DNA of 64,000 nt from Cenococcum geophilum 1.58 (Eukaryota > Ascomycota > Dothideomycetes > Gloniales > Gloniaceae), in the NCBI GenBank assembly GCA_001692895.1, contig KV748192.1, positions 868,001-932,000 on the forward strand, in the 5' to 3' direction. A program made the position numbers and the translations under genes. The notes beneath the pieces are model-generated. The model saw only the letters and a program-made list of their open reading frames with translations. It was not told the origin of the DNA and did not search any database. This document shows, piece after piece, positions 4,434-64,000 of this stretch (position 1 is the stretch's first letter; every line of letters starts with the position of its first letter).

Positions 4434-6290
4434 ATGAGATACGAATACTGGGATGTCATACTCTTCCCGGCCGAGTCTCACATCCCCATCCAAGAGTTCA
4501 GGACAGCATGCTATGTTAGTCAAGCCCAAGGTCAGTCCATTCATATTCTTCAAGTCATCTAACTCAACTTCACGGCCCTGGCTATGCTGACTCTTGAGTC
4601 GATATCACAGATGGCCGTAGGTTACCCATCTTGACATGCTTCGTTCGGTCCCTCTCTCCTTTATCTCCCTTTCGAATCTCGGTCCACTCTTGGACAAAAC
4701 CTACCCCATCATCATACGTCGAATCGAAGCGGAAGCCGGAACAGCGCGTCGTGTACACAATAAGAGTGATAATCGATGGGTTTCGAATACTGTAAGCACC
4801 CCTGATGTATGGAGTCATATTTGACTTTTAATGTCAGCGCAGGCACAACTACTTCGAGAAGAACACATCCTGGCCGCAGCAAATCCGTGAGAACCGCATG
4901 CTCCAGTACAGCTATGCCCTCCACCCCACTAACACAACTGAGGCAACGAAAACCGGCGTGACTGCGAAGGCACAAAGCCGACATTCGGCTTCCTAGACTC
5001 CGCCATCCGCGGCTCGTCCCTCCTATTCCCCGCCTTCAACCCTAGCGTACTCTCGCAAAGTTCCTGGGACGCACAAGAGAGCAACGGCCGCATCAAAGTA
5101 ATCGTAGCCGAAGAGCTGATCAGCGAATCCACATCCGGCATCGCAAAGAGCGGCGCCACCAACGATCTGATCTGCTTCTCCTTCCAGCACGCGCCCAAAG
5201 GCATGGCTCCTCCTTCCCCTCCCTCTCCCTTCCCGCATCAGCCCTCCACCAACACCCCAACCCACTAATACCCCCCGCAGACATCCTCTCGCAAGTCGGC
5301 CTCTCCTGGCCACTCCCCCCGCCGCTCCACCGCGCCTCCAGCATCCGCACTTCCACGCCCTCCGCCCTCTCCTCCCGCCGAAGCCGCGCCCCGCCACTCG
5401 GCCATGCGCACTCCCCGACTCAGAAGCCCCGGCTGCCCGACACTCGGGCCTACGACTCGCCGCTGTTCCCACACCCGCCTCTCGCCGCCGCAGTTGACCC
5501 CTTGGCTGACCCCGTCCCCGACATCGCCATGGCGCTGAGGGATGATCTGTTCGAGCAGCTTATCGAGGCGCTGGGTCCGGAGAAGGGAGGGGGGGGGCAG
5601 TTGGGGTTGGGGCTGGGGGTAACGAATGGGAATAGGACTGGGAATAGGACTGGGATTGGGGATGGAACTGGGAATGGGAATAGGACTGGAGTTGGGGGTG
5701 GGAGAACTGGGAATGGAGCTGGGAAGAGGATTGGGATTGCAACACGCCCCTCAGCAGCAGCCCTCGCCCGCACCGCATCCTACACCACCCATCTGTTCCC
5801 AGGCACCAAGCCCGCGCTGAGCGCCCACCGCTCCGTCGTTCCCTTCCTAGCCGCCGCGGACGACACCAGCATGCGCGGCCCCTCCCCTTCGTCTGCGTTC
5901 TCGAGCCTCTCGCGGCGCGAGTGCGGCGTCCGCGCGAGGAGCGGTCCTGCGGTGGGGGTCCGGTCGCGGAAGGAGGGGCGGAACATGGAGGTCGCGAGGG
6001 CAAAGGCGGAGTTTGGGGGAGGAGGAGGGATTGGAGGGGGTGGAGGGCAAGCGGGGGCTGGGGGNGGGGTTGGGGTGAGGCAGGAGCTCGTGCGCCTGTT
6101 TTCGGATGAGGTGTTGGCGGCTTTTGCGGCTATGGGCGCGGAAGGGGAGGCGGAGAGGGAGCGGGGCGAGAAGAGGAGGCGGGTGGTGGAGTCCGATGGG
6201 GATGGGGGTGGGGAGGTGTCGCCGTTGAAGAAGGTGCTGAGGGGAGGGAGGGACGAGGGGTTGAAGGTTGTGCATGAGTTGTCGGATTGA
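4434..6290 (+). CDS. Conserved ascomycete protein of unknown function, with Gly-rich low-complexity C-terminal half
   Basis: Exons read as 4434-4530, 4611-4791, 4843-5200 and 5281-6290. The start reads MRYEYWDVILFPAESHIPI and the N-terminal 200 residues look like a folded domain: conserved blocks RVVYTIRVIIDGFRI, NYFEKNTSWPQQI, TFGFLDSAIRGSS and SGATNDLICFSFQHAP. This block layout recalls the fungal DUF7918-type domain, but I cannot confirm that. The second half is Pro/Ser/Arg-rich with a GNRTG-type repeat (about 5620-5750) and a basic, acidic-patched tail ending HELSD. Two oddities: intron 3 (5201-5280) must use a GC donor (AAAG|GCATGG) because no GT is available and the frame joins perfectly, and in exon 3 the frame shifts near 4958-4977. 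Dropping the 20 nt there, which begins GT and ends AG, restores the frame; a draft-sequence indel is as likely. One N lies at about 6065. Confidence 0.62.
5600..5760 (+). repeat. G-rich degenerate tandem repeat (GGGAATAGGACT-like)
   Basis: Within the last exon of the preceding gene, short units of the type GGGAATAGGACTG and GGGATTGGGG recur in tandem. They encode a Gly/Asn/Arg/Thr low-complexity run. The plus strand carries dense runs of three or more G, so a G-quadruplex is possible. This is seen directly; its effect is unknown. Confidence 0.7.
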
Positions 6291-6916
6291 TTGTGGGTGG
6301 GCTGCGGTTGTGCAGTTCTGGGTTCTGGGAGTAGGGTTTACTTTCGGGGAATTGGTGTGGGATGGGTGCGTTGCTTTTGAGACGCTGAGAAGGGGGGTAG
6401 GTGTTTTGATGCACTTCAACTTATCTGATATCACTATACACTGGAGAAAAGATCTGTATCTGGCTGCCTTTGACACGCCTTGAGAAGTGAGAAGTCGGGC
6501 GCGATGTATATCATTAGAGACTATGTAAAGCCACTCCGAGCAATTAACGCATTACCACTACCCACCGCCAGAAAAGTAGAAGCAGAAGGAATGGCGTGTC
6601 TGTACACGTCCCCAAAAACCAAACTGGTATCTCGTATGCCCCTCACTCTGCGCACCCCGCAAAACGCCGTGCCGCACAATGCAGCAAGAAGAGACTACTC
6701 CTTCCCAATGCATTTTTATCCACTGCCAACGCCCTTCTGGCACTATTCATATCCGTATGCTCCTGCGCTTTCTCGGCCTGGAATACCACTACGTTTAAGG
6801 AAGAGCCTTGAGGCTAGAGGCCTGTCGGAGGTTTTTCGGTTTTTCGGTTTGAGGCGTCATGCGCTGGCTGACCGTTTGGGTTTTCCCTGCGCTAGTTCCG
6901 ACGCTCGAGTCGAGTT
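6291..6916. other. Convergent intergenic region
   Basis: Region between two convergent genes (unknown protein on +, zinc-ribbon protein on -). It should hold both 3' ends. No coding potential, RNA gene or repeat stands out. Confidence 0.4.
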
Positions 6917-7520
6917 CTACTTGTACGTGTGCCCGGGCGGCGGGCCTTCTCCACCGCCGCCACCACCGCCGCCGTTGTAGTCCTGCATCGGCACGGCGCC
7001 CTGCTGGTGCTGCGGGTCGCCGATCTGGGCTTGGACGTCCGGCCGGTACTTGATGTCCTGGTAGAAGTTGCAGATGTGGCAGCCGACTTCCTGCGCTGGG
7101 TGTTAGCGACCTTCACTCGTTGGTTTCATGGATTCGTTCGTTCGTTCGTTCGTTCGTTCGTCCGTTTTAACTGCTGGCTAGGGGCTGGAGGGGAATCGCT
7201 GGGCTAGCGGACGCGGGATTGTGGGAGAGGAGAGGGGAGGAGAGGACAGCTACTCACGTGCCAGGGCTTCACGGAGAACGGAATGACGGGCACGAAGCAG
7301 AAGGTGAACCATTGCCAGCGCTTGTAGACGTGGCCGCTGAGGTTGCCACAGTTCTGGCATTGCACGGTTAGATGCTCGGCGCCTTTGAGGCGGGATTGGA
7401 AGGCTGTGAGAGGGGAAAGAAAGACACATATTAGCTTTGTTCCCGGTTCCTGGTTTCTGGCCTCGCGGGGAGGGGGAGAGGGGACGTACTGTGCGAGCCG
7501 CAGGTGAAGAGGAAGAACAT
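6917..7520 (-). CDS. Small zinc-ribbon protein (zinc-ribbon_15-like)
   Basis: Minus-strand exons 7520-7490, 7403-7258 and 7090-6917 join in frame to give 116 residues. The protein starts MFFLFTCGSH, has a first Cys pair in LTVQCQNCGNLSG, an aromatic segment YKRWQWFTFCFVPVIPF and a second Cys pair in EVGCHICNFY. The tail is Gly-rich and ends PPGHTYK. Two CxxC knuckles about 38 residues apart with a hydrophobic middle fit the fungal zinc-ribbon_15 family of small proteins. The hydrophobic middle could be a buried strand pair or a membrane segment. Function of the family is not established. The 146 nt middle exon and both junctions (CACA|GTACGT and GGCAC|GTGAGT donors) are well supported by frame and by conservation of both knuckles. 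Confidence 0.82.
7129..7162 (+). repeat. (CGTT)n microsatellite in an intron
   Basis: About seven tandem copies of a CGTT/TTCG tetranucleotide lie inside the second intron of the zinc-ribbon gene (intron 7091-7257). Seen directly. Likely length-polymorphic. Confidence 0.85.
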
Positions 7521-27348: not shown

Positions 27349-30300
27349 ATGACGTTTTCTCTGAAGAAGCTAAATCCCTTCAAAAGGGTTAAACCCCCCA
27401 AACCTAAACTAAACTCTTCCAATCCTCCGCCCTCAGCCGAGAACCAACAAGCTAATTCACCGGCTGAGTCCGTGCAACGACGATCAATCCCAGCTTCAAC
27501 TCCTCCGTCCTCGACAAGCAACTGCCTTGCTGTCACGACGCATACTCTACAACGTAGCAGCGAAGGTTCGGAGCAGCCCGAGGAAGCTGATGCCTCTATT
27601 CTGGCTTTAGCAAGCAACAGCAGCTGGAGCACTAATCTAACCTTGAGAGGACAGTCGCCTCAGCATCCTACTGAACCTGTCGTGCCTCAGCCGGGCAACA
27701 GTAGCGCTGAGAGGTTTGAGGGGAATGACAGTTATGGGATAAAGCTGCATTATAATCCGCCCTCTGCGGTTGTCGATATCGTTTTTGTACATGGATTGAC
27801 GGGCAATGCATACACAACATGGTTTCATACTAGGAGTGGCGTACATTGGCCGAGAGATCTCGTTAAAAGAGATCTTGTGGACTCGCGGGTAATGACCTTC
27901 GGCTACGATGCCGATGTCGTTAACTTCTGGACACATGCCGCGCAGGACGGAGTATCTGGCTTCGCCAATGACCTCCTAGGAAGTCTGGCAGGTTACAGGA
28001 CGGGAATGGAGGTACGAGCTTTAACCAACCAACGTCTCTTCTAAGAGTGTATAATAATTCAAGTATATGCTGACATCAAGCAAGGCAAATAGGAAGATTA
28101 TTTTCGTCGTTCATAGCCTTGGTGGCCTCGTGACACAGCGCGCGCTATCCACTTCTAGAGAATCCCGCTTTCCCCATCTTAGAATGATTGAGACTTGCAC
28201 CATAGGGATCTGTTTTCTAGGGACCCCACACCACGGCACCGATCTTGCAAAATGGGGCGCTGTTCTTACAGACATTGTTAATATCGTTAAGCCCGCCAAC
28301 CGCAGCATTGTCAAGCTACTTCGGCGCGGGTCTGAGGCATTGTCTAATGTACAGGACTCTTTTCACAACGTTCTCGAGAAAAGAAAGCAAGAAGGATCAA
28401 AAATTGAGATTGTCTGTTTCTACGAGCAACTTGCAGTTGGCAAATCATTCATAGTTCCTAAAGAATCCGCTATCATAACTGGAGAGCTTCACTACCCAAT
28501 TTACGCAAATCATATGGTGAGCAAGGATGCTTCGAGACGTAAGGCACTCGCTAATATATGTAAAGGACATGACAAAGTTCTCCAATTCACAACAGAAGGC
28601 ATACAAGGATATAATTCGGGAAATTCGAAGGCTGCAGGGATCGCATCTGGCGATGGATATATCAAGATCGGAGATGCAAGCGAGTCATATCGAGCAAGGT
28701 TAGGCTCTACTCACTGTATACTTCAAAATAGCACAGTATGATTCCAGCCATCACAAGCTGACTACGGGCCTTTGTCGAATAGATAGTGACCTCCCGCAAA
28801 CAATTAAAACTCGGTTTGTACACGATGTGAAAGCACCTCATAAACCCTTTTCATACCTCCCATTGTCAAGAAACGCAAAATTTGTCGGCCGCCTCGAGCA
28901 GCTTAATACGCTTAAAGAGAAACTTTTCATCGATAGTTATTGTCAAAAGGTTGCCATTGTCGGCCTTGGAGGCGTTGGGAAGACTCAAATCGCCCTCGAG
29001 TTTGCTTATCAAGTGAGAGAGACTCATCCAAATTATTCAGTTCTATGGGTGCCGGCGATCAGTCAAGAGAGTTTCGAGCACGCTTTCCTAGAAATAGCAC
29101 AGCTACTTCGTATCCGTGAACTGGCAGACGAGAAGGCAGACGTCAAACAAGCCGTCAAAAGATATCTGGGCCAGGAAGAGGCGGGCCAATGGCTGTTCAT
29201 CCTTGACAACGCTGACAGCCATGATATCTTGTTCGGCTCAAACGCCAACGAAGCCGCCGCGCTAACTGATTATATTCCACAGAGCAGCAAGGGATCGATT
29301 GTTTATACAACCAGAAGCCTTGAAGCTGCAATTTCTCTCGCTAGCAACGAGGTAGTTGAGGTTGTTGAGATGGAAGAGGAGGCCGCAACCAAGTTCTTAA
29401 GCATCTCGTTGATCAGAGAGGATCTATCGAGTAATACCATGGCAGTTTCGGAGCTTCTCAATGAGCTTACATTCCTCCCATTGGCCATCACCCAAGCAGC
29501 TGCGTACATCAACAGAAACAAAATCTCAATTTCGACGTACCTAGAACTACTGAGAGACACTGAAGACAGCATGGTCGCAGTGCTAAGTAGAGACTTTCAA
29601 GACAATTATAGGTACAAGGAGTCTAAGAATCCAGTTGCGGCCACTTGGCTTATATCTTTCGCTCAAATCCGGAGTCAGGATCCGTTGGCAGCCGACCTCC
29701 TCTCCTTCATGTCATGCATTGAGCCGAAAGCAATTCCTCGGTCGATTCTACCAGACCAAGGCCTAGAGGAAAGCGCAATTCACGCGATCGGAACCTTATC
29801 CGGTTATTCTTTCATTACCGAACGGGAAGATGGGAAATCATATGACCTCCACCGGCTTGTACACCTCGCTACGAGAAATTGGGTTCGAGAAGAGGGCCTC
29901 ACGGCTATATGGACAAAGAAGGTGACACAGCATTTTACGAGCCTGTTACGGCACACGGAGTTTATTAACCCACCGATCTGGAAGGGAATTTTGCCACACG
30001 TCCAGAAGATACTTGACAGCAATGCGGCAGCGAAACTCGAGGAGAGATATCAACTTTGTAGAAATGCCGGATGGTGTTTATATGTAGACGGAAGGCCCAG
30101 CGACGCCGTCAAACGGCTTTCGGAAGTATGCGAGTGGAACAAGATGATGCTTTCGGAGGGTAACCCAGCTCGACTGGCATCGGAGCACAGGCTTGCTATA
30201 GCTTATCAAGCAAATGGGCAGGTTAAAGAGGCCGTTGAGCTACTTCAACATGTTGTTAAGATTGAGGAGACTCTATTAGCGGAGGACCACCCAGATCGAC

Positions 30301-31196
30301 TAGCATCACAACATGAGCTTGCCGGAGCTTATCAAGCAAATGGGCAGGTTAAAGAGGCTGTTGAATTAATTGAACATGTTGTTAAGATTCAGGAGGCTCT
30401 ATTATCGGAGGACCACCCANNTCGACTAGNATCACAGCATGAGCTTGCCGGAGCTTATCAAGCAAATGGGCAGGTTAAAGAGGCCGTTGAANTANTTGAA
30501 CATGTTGTTAAGATTGAGGAGGCTCTATTATCAGAGGACCACCCAAGTCGACTAGTATCACAGCATGAGCTTGCCGGAGCTTATCAAGCAAATGGGCAGG
30601 TTAAAGAGGCCGTTGAATTAATTGAACATGTTGTTAGGATTCGGGAGGCTCTATTAGCAGAAGACCACCCAAGTCGACTAGCATCACAGCATGGGCTTGC
30701 TAGAGCTTATCAAGCAAATGGGCAGGTTAAAGAGGCCGTTGAACTACTTGAACATGTTGTTAAGATTCAGGAGGCTCTATTATCGGAGGACCACCCATAT
30801 CGACTAGCATCACAGCACCAACTTGCTATAGCTTATCAAGCAAATGGGCAGGTTAAAGAGGCTATAGAGATACTTGAATGCGTCGTTGAAATTCAGAAGG
30901 TGCTTGCAGAGGATCATCCAAGTCGATTAGCATCACGACGCTCGCTTGCTATAGCTTACGAAGCAAACGGGCAAGCTAAGGAGGCTATAGAGATACTTGA
31001 ACGCGTCGTTGAAATTCAGAAGGTGCTTGCAAAGGATCATCCAAGCCTCTTAGCATCACAACACGCGCTTCGAAGGCTCATACAGTGGTTGATAAGTTGC
31101 TCCCCCCTGTCGATGCTATTTCTTCTGTATTTAATATGCTTAATTCATGGAATTTATGGAGCTGTTGAAGAGGATTTGAGAAAGCTAGAGGTCTGA
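27349..31196 (+). CDS. Fungal NLR: SesB-like alpha/beta hydrolase, NB-ARC, TPR repeats
   Basis: Exons 27349-28011, 28064-28698 and 28787-31196 join in frame to about 1235 residues. Residues 1-130 are disordered. An alpha/beta hydrolase of the SesB/SERAC1 kind follows: DIVFVHGLTGNAYTTW (about 139), nucleophile elbow VVHSLGGLVTQ (about 237), FLGTPHHGTD, and YANHMV with the candidate catalytic His (about 368). NB-ARC: P-loop VAIVGLGGVGKTQIALEF (about 487), Walker B WLFILDNAD (about 567), KGSIVYTTRS, LPLAITQAAAYI and the MHD-like HRLVHLATRNW. From about 896, seven full TPR units of 41-42 residues (consensus LASQHELAGAYQANGQVKEA) and a partial eighth follow. The tail has a hydrophobic run (LFLLYLICLIHGIYG). 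Fungal NLRs of this build act in non-self recognition and regulated cell death, with ligand binding by the repeats and the hydrolase as effector. Function here is by family only. Five Ns lie in the repeats. Confidence 0.9.
30174..31061 (+). repeat. Near-identical tandem 126-bp TPR-coding repeats
   Basis: Units start at 30174, 30300, 30426, 30552, 30678 (each 126 bp), 30804 and 30927 (123 bp each), with a partial unit from 31050. The core GCTTATCAAGCAAATGGGCA is identical in units 1-6. Differences cluster at a few codons (after HELA, at the L/I pair after VKEAVE, in KIxE, and the residue before R at the unit end). The last two units are more diverged. All five Ns fall on sites that differ among the other units. 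Confidence 0.95.
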
Positions 31197-33360: not shown

Positions 33361-36300
33361 ATGCAGCTGTGCCCTAAGGAGGTAAACGGCTTCCAGGTAC
33401 TCGGAGTGCCCCGCTAACGAGCTACAGCTGGACAAGCTCGTCATCTCGCAGCTCGGGCTGCTGGCCCAACGACGGCTGGCGAGAGGTGTCAAGCTGAACC
33501 ACGCCGAGGCAACTGTAAGAGCCCCCCTCTACACCTCCTATAGTTGGCCTCGCCATGCTAACTAGCTCTCTCGTAGGCCCTAATCGCGAATAACCTCCAA
33601 GAAGTACCCCCCCTCCTTACTTGCCCCGTCCTAGAACGAATTGCAAAGGCGTAATGCTGAATACGCAACACAGCTCGTCCGTGATGGCAACCACACAGTC
33701 GCGGACCTCATGTCGATCGGCAAAACGATGCTGGGCCGCCGCCACGTGCAGCCGTCCGTTGTGTCCTCCCTCTCGGAGCTCATGATCGAGGGGACCTTCC
33801 CGACTGGCACATACCTTGTCACCGTACATCACCCGATCAGCAGCGACGACGGGGATCTCGAGAAAGCGCTGTACGGGTCCTTCCTGCCCGTGCCGTCCAA
33901 CGACAAGTTCCCGCTGCCGGAAGCGAGCGTGTATGAGAGCTCGAAGCAGCCCGGCGCGGTGGTCGCCGTGAAGGGGGAGAGCGGGAGGATCAAGCTCAAC
34001 GATGGGCGCAAGAGAATTAAGTTGAAGGTGGTTAGTAAGGGGGACAGGCCGATACAGGTGCGTTGACCCATCCTCCCACCCAAGAGACCCTCTGGCGGCA
34101 CTCCCACACAGCCCCTCTCAGCCCTGCTGTCTCTATCTCTCTGCAAAGAACCTGGAGCACAAGCGGCGAGCCAATGCTAACACTCCATCCGCAGGTCGGC
34201 TCGCACTACCACTTCATCGAAACCAACCCGCAGCTCCTCTTCGACCGCACCCGCGCGCACGGCTACCGCCTCGACATCCCCGCCGGCACCAGCGTGCGCT
34301 TCGAGCCCGGCGACACCAAGACCGTCACCCTCGTCCAGATCGCCGGCAACCAGCACATCCGCGGCGGCAACGCGCTGGCCACCGGCGCCATCGGGGACGT
34401 CTCCGTCGCCGCCTCCATCGTCGAGAAGCTGCAGGCCGGCGGCTTCCTGCACGAGCCCGAGCCCCTTGGCGACGCGGCGCATATCGACATCTGCACTATG
34501 GAGCGCAGCGCCTATATCGGCATGTTTGGCCCGACGACGGGGGATTTGGTGCGGTTGGGCGCGACGGCACTGTGGGTGAAGGTTGAGAGGGATTGTACGC
34601 GGTATGGGGATGAGTGCTCGTTTGGTGGGGGGAAGACGCTGCGGGAGGGGATGGGGCAGGCGGGCGGGAGGTCGGATGCGGAGACGTTGGATACGGTCAT
34701 CACGAATGCGTTGGTGGTGGATTGGAGTGGGATCTACAAGGCGGATATTGGGATTAAGAATGGCATTATTGTGGGCATAGGCAAGGCGGGTAACCCGGAC
34801 GTTATGGAGGGTGTGGATCCGAAGTTGGTGGTGGGGTCTTGCACTGATGTGATTGCGGGGGAGAAGAGCATTGTGACGGCGGGTGGGTTCGATACGCATA
34901 TTCATTTTATCTGTCCACAGCAGGCTTATGAGGCAATCGCATCTGGGATCACGACAATGCTTGGAGGTGGGACGGGGCCCAGGTATGTCTTCCCAAAGCT
35001 CAATTTTCTAAATGATGGGACGAGATAGTAATGCGTGATATAGTACTGGAACCAACGCCACAACCTGCACGCCCGGTGTAACCCACGTCCGCCAGATGCT
35101 GCAAGCCGTCGACGCGCTCCCGCTCAACTTCGGCATCACAGGCAAAGGTAACGATAGCGAGCCAGGCCCGCTCCGCGAGCAGGCTGAAGCCGGCGTGTGC
35201 GGTCTCAAGCTCCACGAAGATTGGGGCACTACTCCAGCTGCCATCGATACGTGCTTGAGCGTCTGCGATGAGCACGACATCCAGACGTTGATCCATACCG
35301 ACACGCTTAACGAGTCTGGCTTCGTCGAGCAGACGATAAAAGCATTTAAGGGTCGCGCGATCCATACGTACCATACTGAGGGTGCGGGCGGTGGACACGC
35401 GCCTGATATCATTAGCGTGGTGGAGCACGAGAACGTCTTACCCTCTAGTACGAATCCTACTCGTCCGTATACGAAGAATACGCTGGACGAGCACCTCGAC
35501 ATGCTGATGGTGTGCCATCACCTTTCGAGGAATATCCCTGAGGATGTTGCCTTCGCGGAGAGCCGCATTCGTGCTGAAACAATTGCTGCGGAGGATGTGC
35601 TACATGATCTTGGCGCTATTAGCATGATGTCTTCCGACTCACAAGCAATGGGTAGATGTGGTGAGGTTATTCTGAGGACCTGGAATACCGCGCACAAGAA
35701 TAAGGTCCAGCGGGGTACTTTGAAGGAAGATGAGGGTTCTGATGCGGATAATTTCAGAGTGAAGAGGTATATCAGCAAGTATACGGTCAATCCGGCAATT
35801 GCGCAGGGTATGGGGCATATTATTGGTAGTGTGGAAGTAGGCAAGCTGGCCGACTTGGTTGTGTGGGACCCGGCGAGCTTTGGGGTCAAGCCGAAGCTGG
35901 TGGTGAAGAGCGGCATGATTTCTTACGCACAGATGGTGAGTTCTGCTGACTCAAAGAAATGAGGTGCTGGCAGCTGACTGGCGTTAGGGTGATCCAAACG
36001 CGTCAATCCCAACGGTTGAGCCGGTGGTTATGAGGCCGATGTTCGCGGTATGTTCGCGTCTCTTCTCACTAAGTCTCTAATGATGTTTACTAATGGCTGG
36101 GTGTAGCCTTTTGTGCCGCCGACAAGCATCACTTTCGTATCGAAGGCCTCGATTGAGTCTGGGGTCGTCGGGTCTTACAATCTCCGCAAGCGTGTTGAGG
36201 CTGTCAAGAACTGCAGGAGTATTGGAAAGAAAGATATGAAGTATAATGATAGCATGCCCAAGATGAAGGTTGATCCTGAGAGATATGTAAGCGAACTGCA

Positions 36301-55000: not shown

Positions 55001-55249
55001 GTACTACACTTTAGCCAGTAGCTAAAAATTAACTTAGTAAAGAGCTTATAGCAATTAACGATAGTCGTATTAAGGAGGAAGTGGTAGATAAGTCTCTAGG
55101 ACTTTAAGTATGTCCTCTACGTATTAAAATAAGACCTTAATTAGTGAGCTTCGTTAACGCCACCTATAAAGTAGTTATACATATCAATAAACTATAGGAT
55201 TAAGAGTTACTTTATAGCTTAGTTACTAAAGACTTTTTATATTTAGTAG

Positions 55250-56080
55250 GTACTAGATATAGTAGTAGCAGGGCGTTATTAAGTTTATTAAACTTTAACT
55301 CTATTTAGTAATATATAACGTCAGAGCTCGCAGAACCTTATTTTTAGGTGGTAAACTTACCAGAATTAACCGTACTTATAAAAAGTATAATATCAGCGTC
55401 TTTTTAAGCAAGCTCTATAACAGTACCGTCTTTTAAGAGTCTTCCGTACAGTTTACCCTATTCAATTTGGCCCAAATACACTAGCTTAAGGTCTGTAAGC
55501 GACTAATTAATTTACTTAGTACCTTACTTAATAGGTATAACGGAGCCGTTCCTCCATTTATCTACTACCTTACGTCTTATTTTAGTCGTTTATACTGTTC
55601 CTATAGCCCCAATTTCTTCCTTCTAAAGCTAGTTAAGTAGCTTAATACTTATAAAAAGGTTATCTAGCCAGATAATATGCTTATACTTATTAAAATATTA
55701 TTTACTATTAAGCTCCTATAGGAGAAGATCTAATACTACTGCCTATATCTTTAAAACCCCCTTTTCTTTTATTTAATACTTATCTAATTAATAGGGCCCT
55801 TCTTAAGACCTTTTATATACTAAAGCCAGTCTAATATATAGCCCTAATTCGCCATAACCTATATCTTAAAGCCTTTTAGTATAGGTTTAGTTGGAATATT
55901 AATAGTTTTAAAAGCTTAGCTGGTAAACTAAGTAATTATCTTATTGACGGCGAGGTGGATGCTAGGCTTCTAATAAAGCCAGAAACGGTCGTATAAGGCG
56001 TCGCTAAATATAGTAATCTTATTAAAAAGAGACTCCTTTATCTTATTATTAGGGTAGTTTAGTTATAATATATAAAGCTT
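55250..56080 (-). mobile_element. RIP-degraded piggyBac-like transposase remnant
   Basis: Ignoring stops, the minus strand reads through the core of a DDE_Tnp_1_7 (piggyBac-type) transposase: HLAVNKIITQFTSQAFKT, INIPTKPILKGFKI, GYILDWLQYIKG, then further down GAIGTV-TTK-type and KLYGRLLKDGTVIELA blocks. Order and spacing fit the family. Many TAA/TAG codons stand where Gln or Trp would be expected, and the sequence is extremely AT-rich with few CA/TG dinucleotides, the footprint of C-to-T mutation at CpA. No product is possible. Ends of the element were not found. Confidence 0.7.
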
Positions 56081-56142
56081 TAAATATATTTACTGCTAAT
56101 AACTCTTATTTATATTTCCCCTAATAGTAAAATTGTCGGGAA

Positions 56143-58440
56143 TGAGGCAAGCGGTCGTCACGTGTCGCCGCGGCACTAGCGTGGCGAGGAGTCTTAAGCT
56201 TCTCGCCCTTCCTTATTCTAATGAAATAAGTATATTAACCAACATCACTGTAACCTACTCGAGTAGTCGTTATTGGTGAGTTACCCTGTATAACTAACAC
56301 TGATCAGTGGTTGAATATATAGTCAACTATAGAGCAGCTAGGTTTTTGAATAGAAGAGATAGTCTCGTATAGGGGTGCTATATGCGCTTATATGGAATAG
56401 ATCCCGGCGATACTGTGCTACCTTAAACTTGCGGAAAACTAGTAATAGAAGTGTCACTAAGTACTAGGAGATACTAAGTTGTATCCATTATGTAGAATAA
56501 CCGCGTTTATGAAGATTTGGTTAAGTACTTTAGGTTAGAAGTATTACTAAACCTAGGGTCCTAAGTTAATGTCCGAAACGCGTTAAACAACCTTTATTTC
56601 CTTATTCTTTTATTAAAAACGCGTTAAAACAACCATCTTAATACCTTTGGTGTACCTCCGCAGACCGTAGGATTACGATTACTACCTAATTATACGTTGA
56701 ACAACCTTTAATAACAGCTATTATGGCGTTAACCTACCTAAAGAAGTATAAGGATGACATTAACCCGGAGATATAGAACACCGATATTACTAGCCTTAAA
56801 GATGTTAACTAGTAAGACTTAAACGGATTTTTATTATACCATATAGTATACTATAAAGACAGTAAATATAACAATACTATGCTATAGTACTGCGTAAGGG
56901 AAGACTTTATTAGATGGATAAAGGGAATATAAACCCCTATAAAAAAGGATATTATATAAGACTTCCGTGACTTCTTATGGGAGTATAGAGTCTTTATACC
57001 TATAGATGGGGGTACTATTAGAGATAATATTTAGGAGCAGGTTATTAACGTAAAAGAAGAGCACAAATGGACTTTATAAGAGATTAAGCACCAACTACGC
57101 ACTATAAGGAAGCTTAACTTACGATAGAATCTAAGTAAGATACCTCTAGAGACAAATCTACCTCTACCTTTAACTCCTCTATATCTAATTTAACCCGTAA
57201 CTTTAATATTAGATACTATACCCTAACGAGAGCAGGCATAGGATCCTATTACTTTGCGATTTAATAACCTTTAGACTCTACCGACTAGACCTATATCCCT
57301 ACTATAGCCTATAATGCAACCCCCACCTCCTCTATCTTAATCTTAAATTAGAGGCGGTTTAAAATTGCTTATAAAGCTTATAAAGCTCTATTTAGATTAG
57401 GAGAAGAAGTTTAGTAGAGAATTATATAATGTTCTTAATTCAAAACTACGGATCTTTTATAACTGTTGCTAGAAGGTAGGAATAGAGTCTAATTAATACT
57501 ATAACGCCTATTCCGTTATGCTTAAGGGCCGAACTAGTACCTTCTATTATAATTATTTAGTAGGAAAAGGATATAATTTTAACCGCATAATATATAAGTT
57601 AAGATGCCACTTTAAAATAGAAGAGAATAAGTAGTAGTATATATTAGAATAGAGAGAGACTACTTTTTTAAGGATTATTACTATAAACCTAGGTATCCCT
57701 CGGCTTAATTATCTTTAAAAGCTCTTTAATTAACTTTAGATAATTTAGCGTAGTTTATCTAAATTATATTAAGAGGATTTTAACCTACACGATTAAGTTA
57801 TTAGCGTATGCTAAGGCGTTCAAGAATATAACCTTACTCTCTTTAATCCTGTAAATACTTATAAAGGAGTGTATACTTAATTAAGATCTTCTATTAGCAC
57901 CGCTCTACGCTCTTAAGAAGTATAGTAATTTAACGCCTAACTTTAACCTACTTTAATTAACCCGCCTAACTAATACAATTATAACTAGACTGATTAAATA
58001 TATAGTGGCCGTAGTAGGTAATATAGTAGAGGGTATAATTAATAACTATAAGGTAAAGGTGGAGGTCCTTATGGAGGTTTATTTCGAAGTAATTGCTAAA
58101 AAAAGTATTACGTTTGTAAGAAACCGAATTGCTAGTTAACTAGGCATTTTTTTAATAAGCGAAAGGAGGTATATAATAAGTTTCGCCAGAGTATAAAAAA
58201 TATTAAAAATTGTAAGGTTACTATAGCTTACTTTTAAAGCTTCCTAGTTTAATATAAAGGTATAGAAGATCTTAAGGGTGAGGTTAATAAGGCCGAATAG
58301 CTCTTTATAGATATGGAAATTAAGGACTACTCTCCTAACTAATACTTTACTAAGTATAGTGAGGTAAATGGTATATAAACCGTTACTATTCTTAATAACT
58401 AATCTACGCTCCATTCTATTATAAAGTTAGATATCTTTAA
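56143..58440 (+). mobile_element. RIP-degraded gypsy-type LTR retrotransposon relic (gag region)
   Basis: A less mutated block beginning TGTCGGGAATGAGGCAAGCG at about 56144 may be part of a 5' LTR or leader. From an ATG at 56719 the plus strand, ignoring stops, reads as a fungal gypsy-type gag: MALTYLKKYKDDINPEI, LRIFYNCC-KVGIESN, GRTSTFYYNYLVGKGY and LRCHFKIEENK, ending in a retroviral-type zinc knuckle (YVCKKPNC followed by TRH) near 58110-58165. Nearly every Gln codon has become TAA or TAG. Protease, RT and integrase do not follow; the sequence is interrupted at about 58.45 kb by the oppositely oriented copia element. Confidence 0.75.
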
Positions 58441-58454
58441 TAAGCTAAGGGAGA

Positions 58455-58790
58455 GTGTTTGTATCAACTTAATAATATAATTGAGTCATATCCAGGGGCA
58501 CAAAATACGTATAGTATCGTATGCTCTTTTGGATGGTGGTGACTATCAATTCTATTGAGGTAGACTACGTGGTCTATATACTGACGCGCCTCCCCCCTGA
58601 TTAGTCAGCACGCAAGTGGTTGGTGCACTAAACGCGTAACTACGCGTTTGGTATACCACGTGCTATAATTATACACTGGCGGCACTTAAGAGTGACTCAA
58701 TTGTATATAACCTCCGTAATCGCTTTAACAGAGCTATAAAACACAAAAGAAATATATAGGAAATCCCTCCTAAGGTGCCTTCTGGGCTGC
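58455..58790 (-). repeat. Probable 3' LTR/terminal region of the copia element
   Basis: This stretch keeps higher GC than its surroundings (for example GACGCGCCTCCCCCCTGATT) and contains TTGAGTCATATCC and, inverted, GACTCAATTGTATATAAC. It lies just beyond the RNase H end of the minus-strand copia pol, where the 3' LTR should be. The other LTR would lie past the right edge of the window, so identity cannot be tested here. Confidence 0.5.
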
Positions 58791-61700
58791 CTTCTAAACG
58801 GTGCTCTTAGCTAACCGTAAGTCCTCCTTACGGTCCGTTAGATGAACCGTACGGCCTTCCGACAGGCTATAAATAAACCGTAAGTGCTCCGTTAGTCTCG
58901 TTCCACCCATTCTACGACCTTTAGATTAAGCTTATTTATATTAATTAGGGTTTTAAGAGCTTAGTACGGCTTTGCCTTAGTTATAGCGTCCGCTAGGTTA
59001 TCTCCGCTGCTAATCCATTTAACCTCCGTAATCTCACGTCGTTTATAGGCCTAATGTAAGCACATTAGGTTGACTATAAGCCTCTTCTCTTATGTCGTAC
59101 CTAGTTTGACTAGGCAATTGTAAAGTAACTTTAAATTAGTGCATAGGACTAGGGGTAATTGCTCCAATTGTAGGATCTTTTAGATTATTAACTTAATTGC
59201 GGCTCCTATATTAAAGCTATGGGCTAGTGCGTATAGTTTAGAAGCTAGTATGCTGCGGGTTACTTATTTATATTTAATTAACGACTAATATAGTATATTT
59301 GCGTCCTAATTATGGTCCGTAAGTACAATTACAAAGCCAATTTGCGATAATAGGTCCCTATTATTGGCAAAGGAGGCATCCGTAAATACTATTATGCTAA
59401 GGGAATTCAGGTCTAGTGGTATAAAAGTAAGTCCTCTTATTGTATTATCAATTTGCCACTAAATACGCTTATTAAGCTGCTTAATATTTTCCTCTTATAG
59501 ATCTGTTACTTAGGCCGCAAAGGATAAATTATAGGTAGATTTGGGTTGATAAACTATGGTAATATAGGCGCCTCTTGCGCGCTAGGTAACGTATTGGTCC
59601 TTTATACTTATAGTCTTACGGGTTTCTTTACGGGAACTGGTAAGGTCCGTAGGCTTTGCTATAACAAGCTTTAGGTTTTAAGCTTAACGTTCCTAAATTA
59701 GCTAAATTAGGTTGCCCTTTTATATAATTAAGCCTCTATTAAACTTAATTAGAGTCTACTTAGTTAACTACTCTTACGGCTTTGCTAAGAACTTTACCTC
59801 TTATAGTTTAGTCTCTTTAGCATCCACAAAAGTCCGGTCCGCTAAGAAGAGGGTATTATCCGTTTAGAGTCTAATAATACTAAGGCCGTTTAATAGGGTG
59901 TATAGGAGGTAGGGGTCGTAGGTCAACTGTTCTATTTTAAGTTTACTAACATAATACTAGTAATACGTTTTAAACTAGTGGTTTCTAGCTTCCGGCACTC
60001 TATAAAGGGGTTTTATAACCTATAAAATTGTTCCTAGTTGCAAATTAAGCTTAAGGGGTAATTATATAAAGATGTCTCTACTAAGGTAGGTATTAGACTG
60101 CATATAGGCTTGCGAGATGTCCCGTAAGTAGAGGGCTACGGGTTTAGTTTACTATAGTCTAGGCGTAAGTATAAGTATAATCCGTTAACTGACCCGTTAA
60201 ATTATAGGCGATTGCGTAAGGACTAAGTCCTTTCCCTGGTTGTTATAAGCTTATATAACAAGCCTTAATTTTTCAAAGGCTTTATTAGTACTAGGGTGCT
60301 TAATTTTATTAATAAAGCGCGAGTTAAATATACGGACGCCTTACGGAACGTCTCTGTCCGTTATAACCGCAAAGACGCTTTTTTTAAGTAGTCCGTTAAT
60401 CTCTTTACGTTATAAGTCCGTAAAAGGGGTATCCTATACTAGAACTAATATATATATAGGCGGAGGTTGCCTTATAGATGTGCCTGTAAAGGTTAAGTAA
60501 TTCTCCATTACGGGGTTCTTTTAGGGGCGTTCTTAACTATGCTTTACAGTAGGTTTAGTAGGTTTAGTGGGTTTATAGGGGACTTCTAGGGTAGGTAAGG
60601 GTGCTTTTAGTTTATCTAGTTCGGCGGGTGCTTCTAGTTCGTCTGGTTTAACGTTATAGGTGTATTTAGACCGAAAATAGGGTTTTACAGATGTGCTTCT
60701 AAAGCTAGTCGGTTTGCTAGGAAGTTATACGTAGCACGTTTCGTTTTCTACAGCTAGTAAATAATAAGGTCCAGTTTAATTACCGCTCTTACGCTATATA
60801 AGGACTTTAGAATTAAGCGGGAGGTTATAAACTAAGGTCGTGTTAGGTCCGTTGCGGTAATATAGGGCGCTATTAACAGCTTGTTTGGCCTGTAATTTAA
60901 CTATTTCGGCTATTACCTTCCGTATTATAGCTACTCGTTCCGTAATAGACGGGGTAGAAGGGCCTAGGTTGCTTATCCTTGGGTAAGCTCCGTAAACTAA
61001 GAGGGTAGGTACTAGTCCGTTAGGGCTAGCGGTGTCGTTAATAGCTTTTACGGCCATCTATAAAGCCAGTTCCTTTTAAATGTCCTTATACTCGTCTATA
61101 ATAATCTGGTAAGCTCTCTATAGAGCTAGGTAAGCTTATTTAATAAGCCTAATAGACTAGTGCGCCTTAACTAGGATAGCTTTTATTAAAATAGCCATGG
61201 CCATAGCATACTGTTAAAATTCCTTACTAATAAAGTTCCTACTAGCGTTATGGGTGATATACTTAGGAGGTCTAAGGTATATATCAATTTAGTAGGTCCG
61301 TAAAATATCCTAAGTGTATTTTACGGATATATTTTGCAACTAACGGGTAGCTTAGTAGTGGGTTGCCTTATTAATTATATATAATACTAGGCTGCCGTTA
61401 ATGTACATAATGTCTATATATACTAAGTGGTTAAAATCAAGGTCCTTATAAAGGGTAAACTTAAATCGGCCTGGGGAACGTCCGTATTTTTAGCAAAAGG
61501 AGCAGTATTTAGTTAGGTGGTCGATTGCCTTCTTATTAACATTATTGTGTCCAGAGCATTTAAGGACTCTATACAGCTTTTCGGCTAACAGGTGGCCGAA
61601 ACGGCGGTATAGGCGGTAGATTTTAGTATTAGTAAGGTAGCACGGGTTATAGTTAAAAGATTCCTAAATGTAGGTCCGTAAGGTCTCTCCCTATATAAGA

Positions 61701-64000
61701 AATGGGTGTCTAAATCGTCGTGTAATTAGTAGGGTAATATACTTGTTTCCTAGGGTAGTTATAGGGCTAATTAAGGTGTCCGTAACATTGTTGTAGTAAA
61801 CCTATAACCTGTCTATATCTATAAAACAGAGTAGAAAAGGGGTATCCGCTTTTATTACGTAGAAGTTAACTAGGCTAATTAGGGTCTTAACTGCAACTGA
61901 TCTAATTAATATAGTTAAGCCAATGCCGAATTGGACGTTTACGGCCCTAGTTTGCATAGTATTAATGTCCGTATTGTTATTTACAGTAGTCTTATATATA
62001 AGGTATTGTCTGTAACCTACAGTAGACTTCTTAGAAGTACTTATATTAATTATAACGCTATAGAATTTTTTAGGGGTATAGCGTTCTGTAGTAATATATG
62101 TAAATGGGTCCTATTCGCGGTCTATAACGTCTATAGCGGGTCTAATAGGTGTGCTTACGGGCTGGTTTTTGGGTGCAATTAAGTATATAAAGGAGCGGTT
62201 GGCTAATACGGTCATAGTATTAAAGGCTTGGCTGTCTATAAAAGGTCTGAAAGTGGTTAGGAACGTCTTTAAGGTCTTCTATACCTAAGTATCTAAGTTA
62301 AAGTTAATTATAAGGGCTTCTATTGACTTATTAAGGGACTCCTCTACTTCCTCTCCTTTGTATTCTAAGATAAACTAGTTAATTCGTTTATTAAATCTCT
62401 TCTTAGACCTATTACGTTCTTCCTAGGTATGCCTTATAGACTAATATCCTTCCTTACCACATACGAAGTATTTCTGGCTTATTTGTTTATGGGGGTATGC
62501 TTTTATATAGGAGTTACTGCGGGGGTTACGGGTGGGGCTTAGTCGGTATGGATACTGCTAGCAGTAGCGGCGGTCCGTAAAGTAGGCATCTAAGTTAGTT
62601 TATGGGTTTTGTAGGTCCGTAATAAAGGCTTAAGTACTGCCTAGCAGGTTTAAGACTTCATACGTTGCAATGGAGGACCGTAAATTATTAATAAGGCCGG
62701 CTATAGTGTTTATAGGCTTATAATAGGCGTATTTATAGGGTTCTATTTCCTAGTAAGCTATAATAAGCTTATTATGCAGGAAGTCGTCCGTTTAAAGCTT
62801 AATATTAAGGCCGTGCTATAGGTGCCGGAGGTCTTTAATAAGAATTTGCAGGCACTCTATAATCGATTTTTTGGTATTCTTATTAATTACGGTCCGTAAC
62901 TTAATTGTATTCTATTGGGTAAGGATATTACACTTATATTTGGGCCCTTTAAAGTAGTTACGTATAGCCTTATATAGCCTATTAAAGGGAACACTAAGGG
63001 GGTTGCTCTTAAGGTTAGTATAGTAGTGGTTAAGTGCTAGGCCGCGTAGTATGGTAGAGTAGGCTTAGCTAAACTCCTATTTAGGAATATTAGCCTTCTA
63101 ATAGAGGTCCGTAAAGATAGTTAGTTTAAAGTTAAAGTTGTTATTTTTACCGCTATACTTAGATTCGTCGGTGTAGAGCTTAGCTAGGTTGGCTAGTTCC
63201 TTACTATAGGTCTTTACTTGGTTAGTTTGCGGATCTATAACTTAAGTAACGGAAGGGTTTTAGTCCGTATTTTAATTTGCGGGGGTATTTTAGTCCATAA
63301 TTTAGGTTACGGGGGTATTACGGTCCGTAACTTTAGTACTGGGTATACTTTGGCCTATAAGATTAATTCCAAAATCGCTTAGGTTTATAGGACGAATTTG
63401 GTTAAGTAGGTTAGGTATAAGGCTAGCAATGCTATTAAGTTTAGGAGAAGTAAAGAGTTTATTAGTGGCTTTAACCTAATCTAGGATTTCCTCTTTAGTC
63501 CATTCCGTTTAGTCCTCTTTGTATAATATATTATATAAAGACCGTATAATAGTAACTTGTTTATCCTTCTTAACCTATATACCTTGGTAACGTAAGAGGG
63601 TCTATAGGTTGCGGGTAGCTACAAGGTTGTAAGCCTTAAAGATAGCTTCCGTAAAGTCCGTAAAGTCTTCCTTATATTATTCCTATAGATTATTGTTTAG
63701 GAGGTTAAAGTGTCCGTATTTAAGGATTTTAAAATTAATATAGTTATTGACGCCGTCCGTAGATGTAAGGTCGACTCCCTAACTCTACTTCTTTTAACCT
63801 TCGCTAATTTGCTTACTTAGGTCTGCCATACTATATGTGGTGTAGTATGTAGTAGGTGGAAGAGGTTTTATAGTGGTCCGTAAAGGCGATTAACAGGTCC
63901 GTAAAAGTGATTGGCAGGTCCGTAATGGTTTATAGGAGGGCGGGGGGTTTCTATAAGGGGTCTAAAAAGAGGTTGGGGGTATTAAGGGAGGGTGTAGTAG
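58791..64000 (-). mobile_element. RIP-degraded Ty1/copia retrotransposon, pol in reverse orientation, cut by the window edge
   Basis: Reading the minus strand and ignoring stops: RNase H at about 59390-58900 (FTDASFANNRDLLSQIGF, ILASKLYALAHSFNIGAA, EITEVKWISSGDNLADAITK), reverse transcriptase upstream (59.4-60.5 kb, including DNTLFLADRTFVDAKET), integrase around 61057-60794 (NGLVPTLLVYGAYPRI, still open for 87 codons), then presumed gag/protease towards 64.0 kb. RT follows integrase, the copia order. Gln and Trp codons are largely stops. TCCGT/ACGGA pentamers recur at a striking rate. The 5' LTR is beyond the window. No functional product. Confidence 0.82.

Follow-up and report, generated by a model that had tools for sequence, protein, structure and literature searches.

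The closest described counterparts of the gene analysed here are found in Podospora. Pa_2_10340 has the SesB-like/NB-ARC/TPR domain order that is predicted here, with highly conserved TPR units, and the number and make-up of its units vary between relatives (PMC4986451); that TPR NLRs are polymorphic in repeat number and subject to positive selection has already been published from that system (PMC4986451). There, at least five isolates were compared and three TPR sites were reported as positively selected (PMC4986451), whereas our gene is set against one relative. P. anserina TPR-like repeats of 42 residues have been crystallised (4Y6C, 4Y6W), with near-identical units of the same 42-aa length as ours, though these structures are of repeat pieces, and the last two units of our array have 41 aa. 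A third comparison is with the P. anserina HNWD NLRs het-d, het-e and het-r, whose units measure 126 bp, as do the first five units here, and whose Illumina assemblies contained Ns, chimeric units and wrong unit counts (PMC12222747). The HNWD repeats are WD40 beta-propellers and were assembled with SPAdes, in contrast to TPR units assembled with AllPathsLG in our case (PMC12222747). For Cenococcum geophilum, the genome paper refers to families of genes carrying HET, NACHT and WD40 domains (PMC5023957); no NLR work on this species was among the ten literature matches listed of 17,050, which says little.

Against this background, the explanation of the locus is essentially ordinary: a further NLR of a known type, plus what is most likely an assembly artefact of a kind already described.

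A predicted SesB-like/NB-ARC/TPR gene in Cenococcum geophilum

The window (the whole 64,000-nucleotide stretch that was analysed) contains the following features of the gene, all on the forward strand:

27349..28011, +, predicted exon 1: N-terminal tail, then the first part of a SesB-like alpha/beta hydrolase (DUF676)
28085..28698, +, predicted exon 2: remaining part of the hydrolase
28748..31196, +, predicted exon 3: linker, NB-ARC, TPR array and C-terminal tail
28899..29495, +, NB-ARC domain (PF00931), 42.5 bits, E 6e-11
30166..30795, +, five 126-bp (42-aa) TPR units: u0 30166-30291, u1 30292-30417, u2 30418-30543, u3 30544-30669, u4 30670-30795
30796..31041, +, two more distant 123-bp (41-aa) TPR units: u5 30796-30918, u6 30919-31041

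Judged by its domains, this is a fungal NLR of C. geophilum with the predicted order SesB-like/DUF676 hydrolase–NB-ARC–TPR. The sequence-only reading had proposed a fungal NLR whose TPR units are conserved among themselves, and the NB-ARC match, the TPR profile matches and the unit comparison agree on it. The NB-ARC match covers residues 65-263, counted in the frame that starts at 28707 (cut-off 23.5 bits), and the C-terminal array is recognised by both TPR_12 and TPR_10, in 7 stretches each; the array also matches the Podospora TPR-like repeat 4Y6W at 253.8 bits. DUF676, a serine hydrolase type, is matched at residues 144-324 of exons 1 and 2 joined via the predicted introns (29.7 bits, cut-off 20.3), and an HSLGG nucleophile-elbow motif, recognised by eye, lies at 28112-28126 in exon 2. 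The splicing of exons 1-3 is a prediction from open frames. Exon 1 is open from an ATG at 27349 to a GT donor at 28012; alternative acceptors for exon 2 at 28063 or 28096 likewise leave the frame open, as do further splice choices for intron 2.

If the protein works as characterised fungal NLRs do, a ligand would bind the TPR superhelix, upon which the NB-ARC domain would exchange nucleotide and oligomerise as a switch, and the hydrolase would be activated as the output, leading to cell death or defence. This signalling mechanism, and any role in allorecognition or defence, is carried over from those NLRs.

The whole array (30166-31041) comprises seven units. It had been described as seven nearly identical units: the count stands, the degree of likeness was overstated. 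Base identity ranges from 82.5 to 96.7% over the ten pairs of 126-bp units, and u5 and u6 are further off, with 19-26 matches of 30-33 to u0-u4 over the first 33 residues and 27/33 to each other over the same span. High internal conservation (HIC) is defined in the literature by repeats that span 100 aa or more at over 85% identity (PMC4986451). Units u1-u4 lie above this identity, with 171 of 189 compared residues identical across six pairs, counted over positions 1-33 of 42 (27/33 in one pair); once u5 and u6 are counted in, the array falls below it.

A close relative carries a different array

The protein P0001, encoded on a 56-kb contig, is identical to the window protein at 425 of 447 residues before the array (about 95%). 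Its array consists of eight 41-aa units of different composition, as opposed to five 42-aa and two 41-aa units in the window. P0001 was compared as a protein only and is the sole relative in the unit-count comparison, so the repeat-number polymorphism of HIC genes, here 7 units versus 8, is seen with one relative. Together, u1-u4 identity and unit-number variation match the gene to the published fungal NLRs of high internal conservation.

The window's genome (177.2 Mb, 162 contigs) was searched at the DNA level in two ways. With 28800-30100 as the query, the best candidates scored were the region itself and two short stretches, one of 186 bp at 70% and one of 63 bp at 83%; with the array, they were the array itself and five matches at 63-72%. 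No close second NB-ARC copy was found in this genome, which makes another genome the probable source of P0001, as an allele or ortholog. Protein searches for other alleles yielded no match above 70% identity besides P0001 among the best 120 matches listed for each; two proteins named C. geophilum among the matches listed, P0093 and P0146, are not orthologs of the NLR gene, and this does not imply absence of one.

A differing array next to a conserved N-terminal part is what unit turnover and concerted evolution would be expected to leave, a process in which the sensor array would evolve by duplication, loss and conversion of units. A structure model of P0001 (mean pLDDT 85.0, pTM 0.75) has as its three best PDB matches the STAND-TPR protein 6MFV and the Podospora repeats 4Y6C and 4Y6W. 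At 31081-31196, the frame in the window runs about 30 residues, largely hydrophobic, past the last residue of P0001, which may reflect a stop, an intron or read-through.

Ambiguous bases fall on columns that vary between units

Two further features concern ambiguous bases within the array:

30420..30495, +, five Ns in the third unit, u2, affecting four codons
30408..30510, +, 103-bp self-match (N as wildcard), equal to 30534-30636, 126 bp downstream (u2/u3)

The window contains six Ns, five of them in the array at 30420, 30421, 30430, 30492 and 30495, exactly where they had been read from the sequence; the sixth, at 6065, lies in a G-rich run. The five were said to coincide with sites that vary between units, and this is borne out: all five fall on the 25 of 126 columns that vary among u0, u1, u3 and u4 (hypergeometric p = 2.2e-4). 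Compared with u1, u3 and u4 only, 15 of 126 columns vary and again carry 5/5 Ns (p = 1.2e-5); compared with u1 and u3 only, 10 columns vary and carry three of the five (p = 0.0034). Because the Ns are clustered, we also rotated the N pattern with its spacing preserved, and 5/5 was reached in 1 of 126 rotations, the true one. N placement is therefore more than chance.

The further claim that these sites are ligand-facing was overstated. Two of the four affected codons, 24 and 25, fall on hydrophobic positions with low variability across arrays; the alternatives that had been named for 30492 (TTA/CTA) both encode Leu, and those of the codon at 30495 encode Ile or Leu. Position 3, also an affected codon, ranks with the more variable sites of helix A, and the affected codon just after HP differs between units. 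The most variable helix-A positions, 7 and 10, are free of Ns, and with codons 24 and 25 varying little we discard the Ns as markers of ligand-facing sites. The variability profile draws on 11 arrays, counting one locus twice (as L030 and as P0093), with L031 dropped (3 units recognised) and with the unit finder taking only 5 units of L008 and 6 of L030.

Repeat length and the assembler k-mer

Within 30100-31100, the 103-bp stretch is the sole self-match of 96 bp or more; it contains all five Ns, and its nearest rival in length has 70 bp. If the Ns are filled in as in u3, the exact repeat is 103 bp long, as against 80 bp with the letters of u1 and 65 bp with those of u0 or u4. Except in the NN codon, each N site shows two states across the 126-bp units. 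The u3 letters would on this evidence be one of the competing versions at the N sites, and the other version cannot equal u0, u1 or u4 because u2 mismatches these at 14, 4 and 5 further columns, respectively.

The published C. geophilum assembly (178 Mb) was made with AllPathsLG from Illumina data (fragment libraries at 2 x 150), with PacBio gap filling (PMC5023957). In another species, AllPathsLG is described as building unipaths of 96-mers and as turning branches that mismatch at single bases into ambiguous codes (PMC5905499); both k = 96 and the use of N codes are thus carried over to the present assembly from work on a different genome. In the eight TPR arrays examined here (the window array, L007, L008 and L030-L034), the exact internal repeats displayed reach 87 bp at most, and the sole stretch able to exceed 96 bp is the one that carries Ns. 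The other seven arrays contain none, which counts against an assembly origin of the Ns.

We consider it quite probable that the Ns are ambiguity codes at a branch between adjacent near-identical units, in an NLR array evolving by unit turnover. Units u2 and u3 would be alike, disputed bases aside, over more than the k-mer length of the assembler, and a short-read assembler meeting a graph branch there would write the five Ns as ambiguity codes. It had been suggested that the assembler merged distinct units or alleles; what holds of this is that near-identical units left unseparated, in the 103-bp u2/u3 stretch, best explain the Ns. The array shows by example that the legibility of NLR repeats in short-read fungal genomes is decided by k-mer length, and unit counts and unit orders in such assemblies are unfit for allele or selection analyses without long reads.

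As controls for the occurrence of Ns, we took 18 regions of 10 kb, three of which contain isolated Ns: one each in L013 and L016, and six within 49 bp in L026. The L026 cluster lies inside a dispersed repeat, for which 40 places were scored (itself and 39 others at 90-93%), whereas for the single Ns in the other two regions no tie to a repeat was found, which again counts against an assembly origin. That N clusters sit at near-identical repeats is accordingly a statement about two clusters, those of the window array and L026.

Alternative origins of the ambiguous bases

A stronger version of the assembly artefact is that the assembler merged extra units and that the true array has more than seven. 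Adjacent units sharing more than k bases would be expected to form a graph cycle that leaves copy number open, and Podospora NLR assemblies from short reads are reported to be shorter than those from long reads, or to have units omitted or created (PMC12222747); the eight units of P0001 would also fit. Against this, confusion of u2 with u3 accounts for the Ns without any additional unit, and Podospora counts vary both ways, from 2 to above 15 per TPR locus (PMC4986451). We regard a longer true array as a possibility that deserves some weight, at about half the credence of the u2/u3 branch or a little less. The Ns do not by themselves show a higher copy number, as a real u2 and a real u3 suffice. 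Of the expectation that the repeat number is higher or polymorphic, the variation between relatives (P0001) is borne out, and the higher count is left as the possibility of lesser weight.

Alternatively, the heterogeneity may be real, with two versions of u2 in the sequenced mycelium, either as alleles in different nuclei or through somatic conversion. The two-state character of the N sites (the NN codon excepted) is compatible with this, as is the frequent recombination of such arrays in Podospora (PMC4986451), but Podospora het-r arrays are reported to be unchanged through laboratory culture (PMC12222747), and a second version of u2 is not needed to account for Ns in the sole stretch above 96 bp. 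We therefore hold real heterogeneity to be very unlikely, and its boldest form, in which the Ns capture somatic conversion in progress in a mycelium that held at least two u2 versions, to be a shade more improbable still. C. geophilum is described as known only from asexual states (PMC7787446), and were somatic conversion true, the reshuffling of sensor units would let recognition diversify without sexual reproduction. A second version might also have come from a near copy located elsewhere in the genome; we reject this on the two DNA searches described above, within the best candidates that they scored.

Isolated Ns do occur elsewhere (6065 in the window, L013 and L016), but low-quality bases arising at random and independently of the repeat are rejected for the array on the variable-column and rotation tests, and we give this reading next to no credence.

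Replacements concentrate on hypervariable unit positions

We return to the u2/u3 branch as the preferred origin of the Ns and turn to the variation between units itself, which had been attributed to diversifying selection. Six unit positions (7, 10, 13, 22, 30 and 32) were picked from the arrays of six other proteins. At these, the window array has a pN of 0.33 versus 0.06 elsewhere, a value reached by 9 of 20,000 random sets. The hypervariable unit positions are thus real, and the concentration of replacements on them bears out part of the claim. Against the rest, pS at the same independently chosen positions is 0.36, giving a pN/pS of 0.91, and 2355 of 20,000 random sets match or exceed the observed pN minus pS. 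Over all five 126-bp units, pN/pS is 0.48.

A second set (3, 7, 10, 13, 32 and 33) is partly circular, as it was picked partly from the window array. It gives a pN/pS of 3.21 in the window versus 0.20 elsewhere, and across six arrays values of 1.27-4.47 versus 0.20-0.95 elsewhere, with each frame read apart and units containing a stop dropped. The window array has pN above pS only with this partly circular set. Three arrays that took no part in choosing the set, L007, L031 and L032, have pN/pS values of 1.98, 2.58 and 1.85 at the set positions, with the caveat that L007 and L032 may carry sequence errors. Taken together, these ratios suggest positive selection on positions of the TPR family, without singling out the window array.

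Other TPR arrays and neighbouring sequence

In L007, an array of 9.5 copies of 126 bp at 5759-6963 (G000:C15:1171758-1172962) adjoins a hydrolase-like frame. Small changes in length, amid otherwise near-identical units, interrupt its frame several times, and these breaks may be gap-filling errors or real decay. L032 (408-1291; G000:C7) has odd overlapping periods of 47, 173, 297 and 422 bp, which may reflect misassembly. The array of L030 (457-1792; G000:C10), with 10.6 copies, has a frame that breaks after the sixth unit. Over 403 aa it matches P0093, a C. geophilum protein, at 99.75%, and P0093 terminates right at this break, which may be common to two assemblies.

The arrays L033 (238-2283; G000:C39) and L034 (116-912; G000:C18) contain many stops and RIP-like dinucleotides and are decayed relatives: TA/AT is 2.72 and 2.97, respectively, versus 0.87 in the window array, and the RIP substrate index is 0.42 and 0.47 versus 1.68.

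Elsewhere in the window, urease-like open frames were recognised by eye at 33635-35028. An AT-rich block at 55001-64000 (GC 0.31-0.39) has a RIP-like pattern (1.81, 0.44) and is probably decayed transposon sequence.
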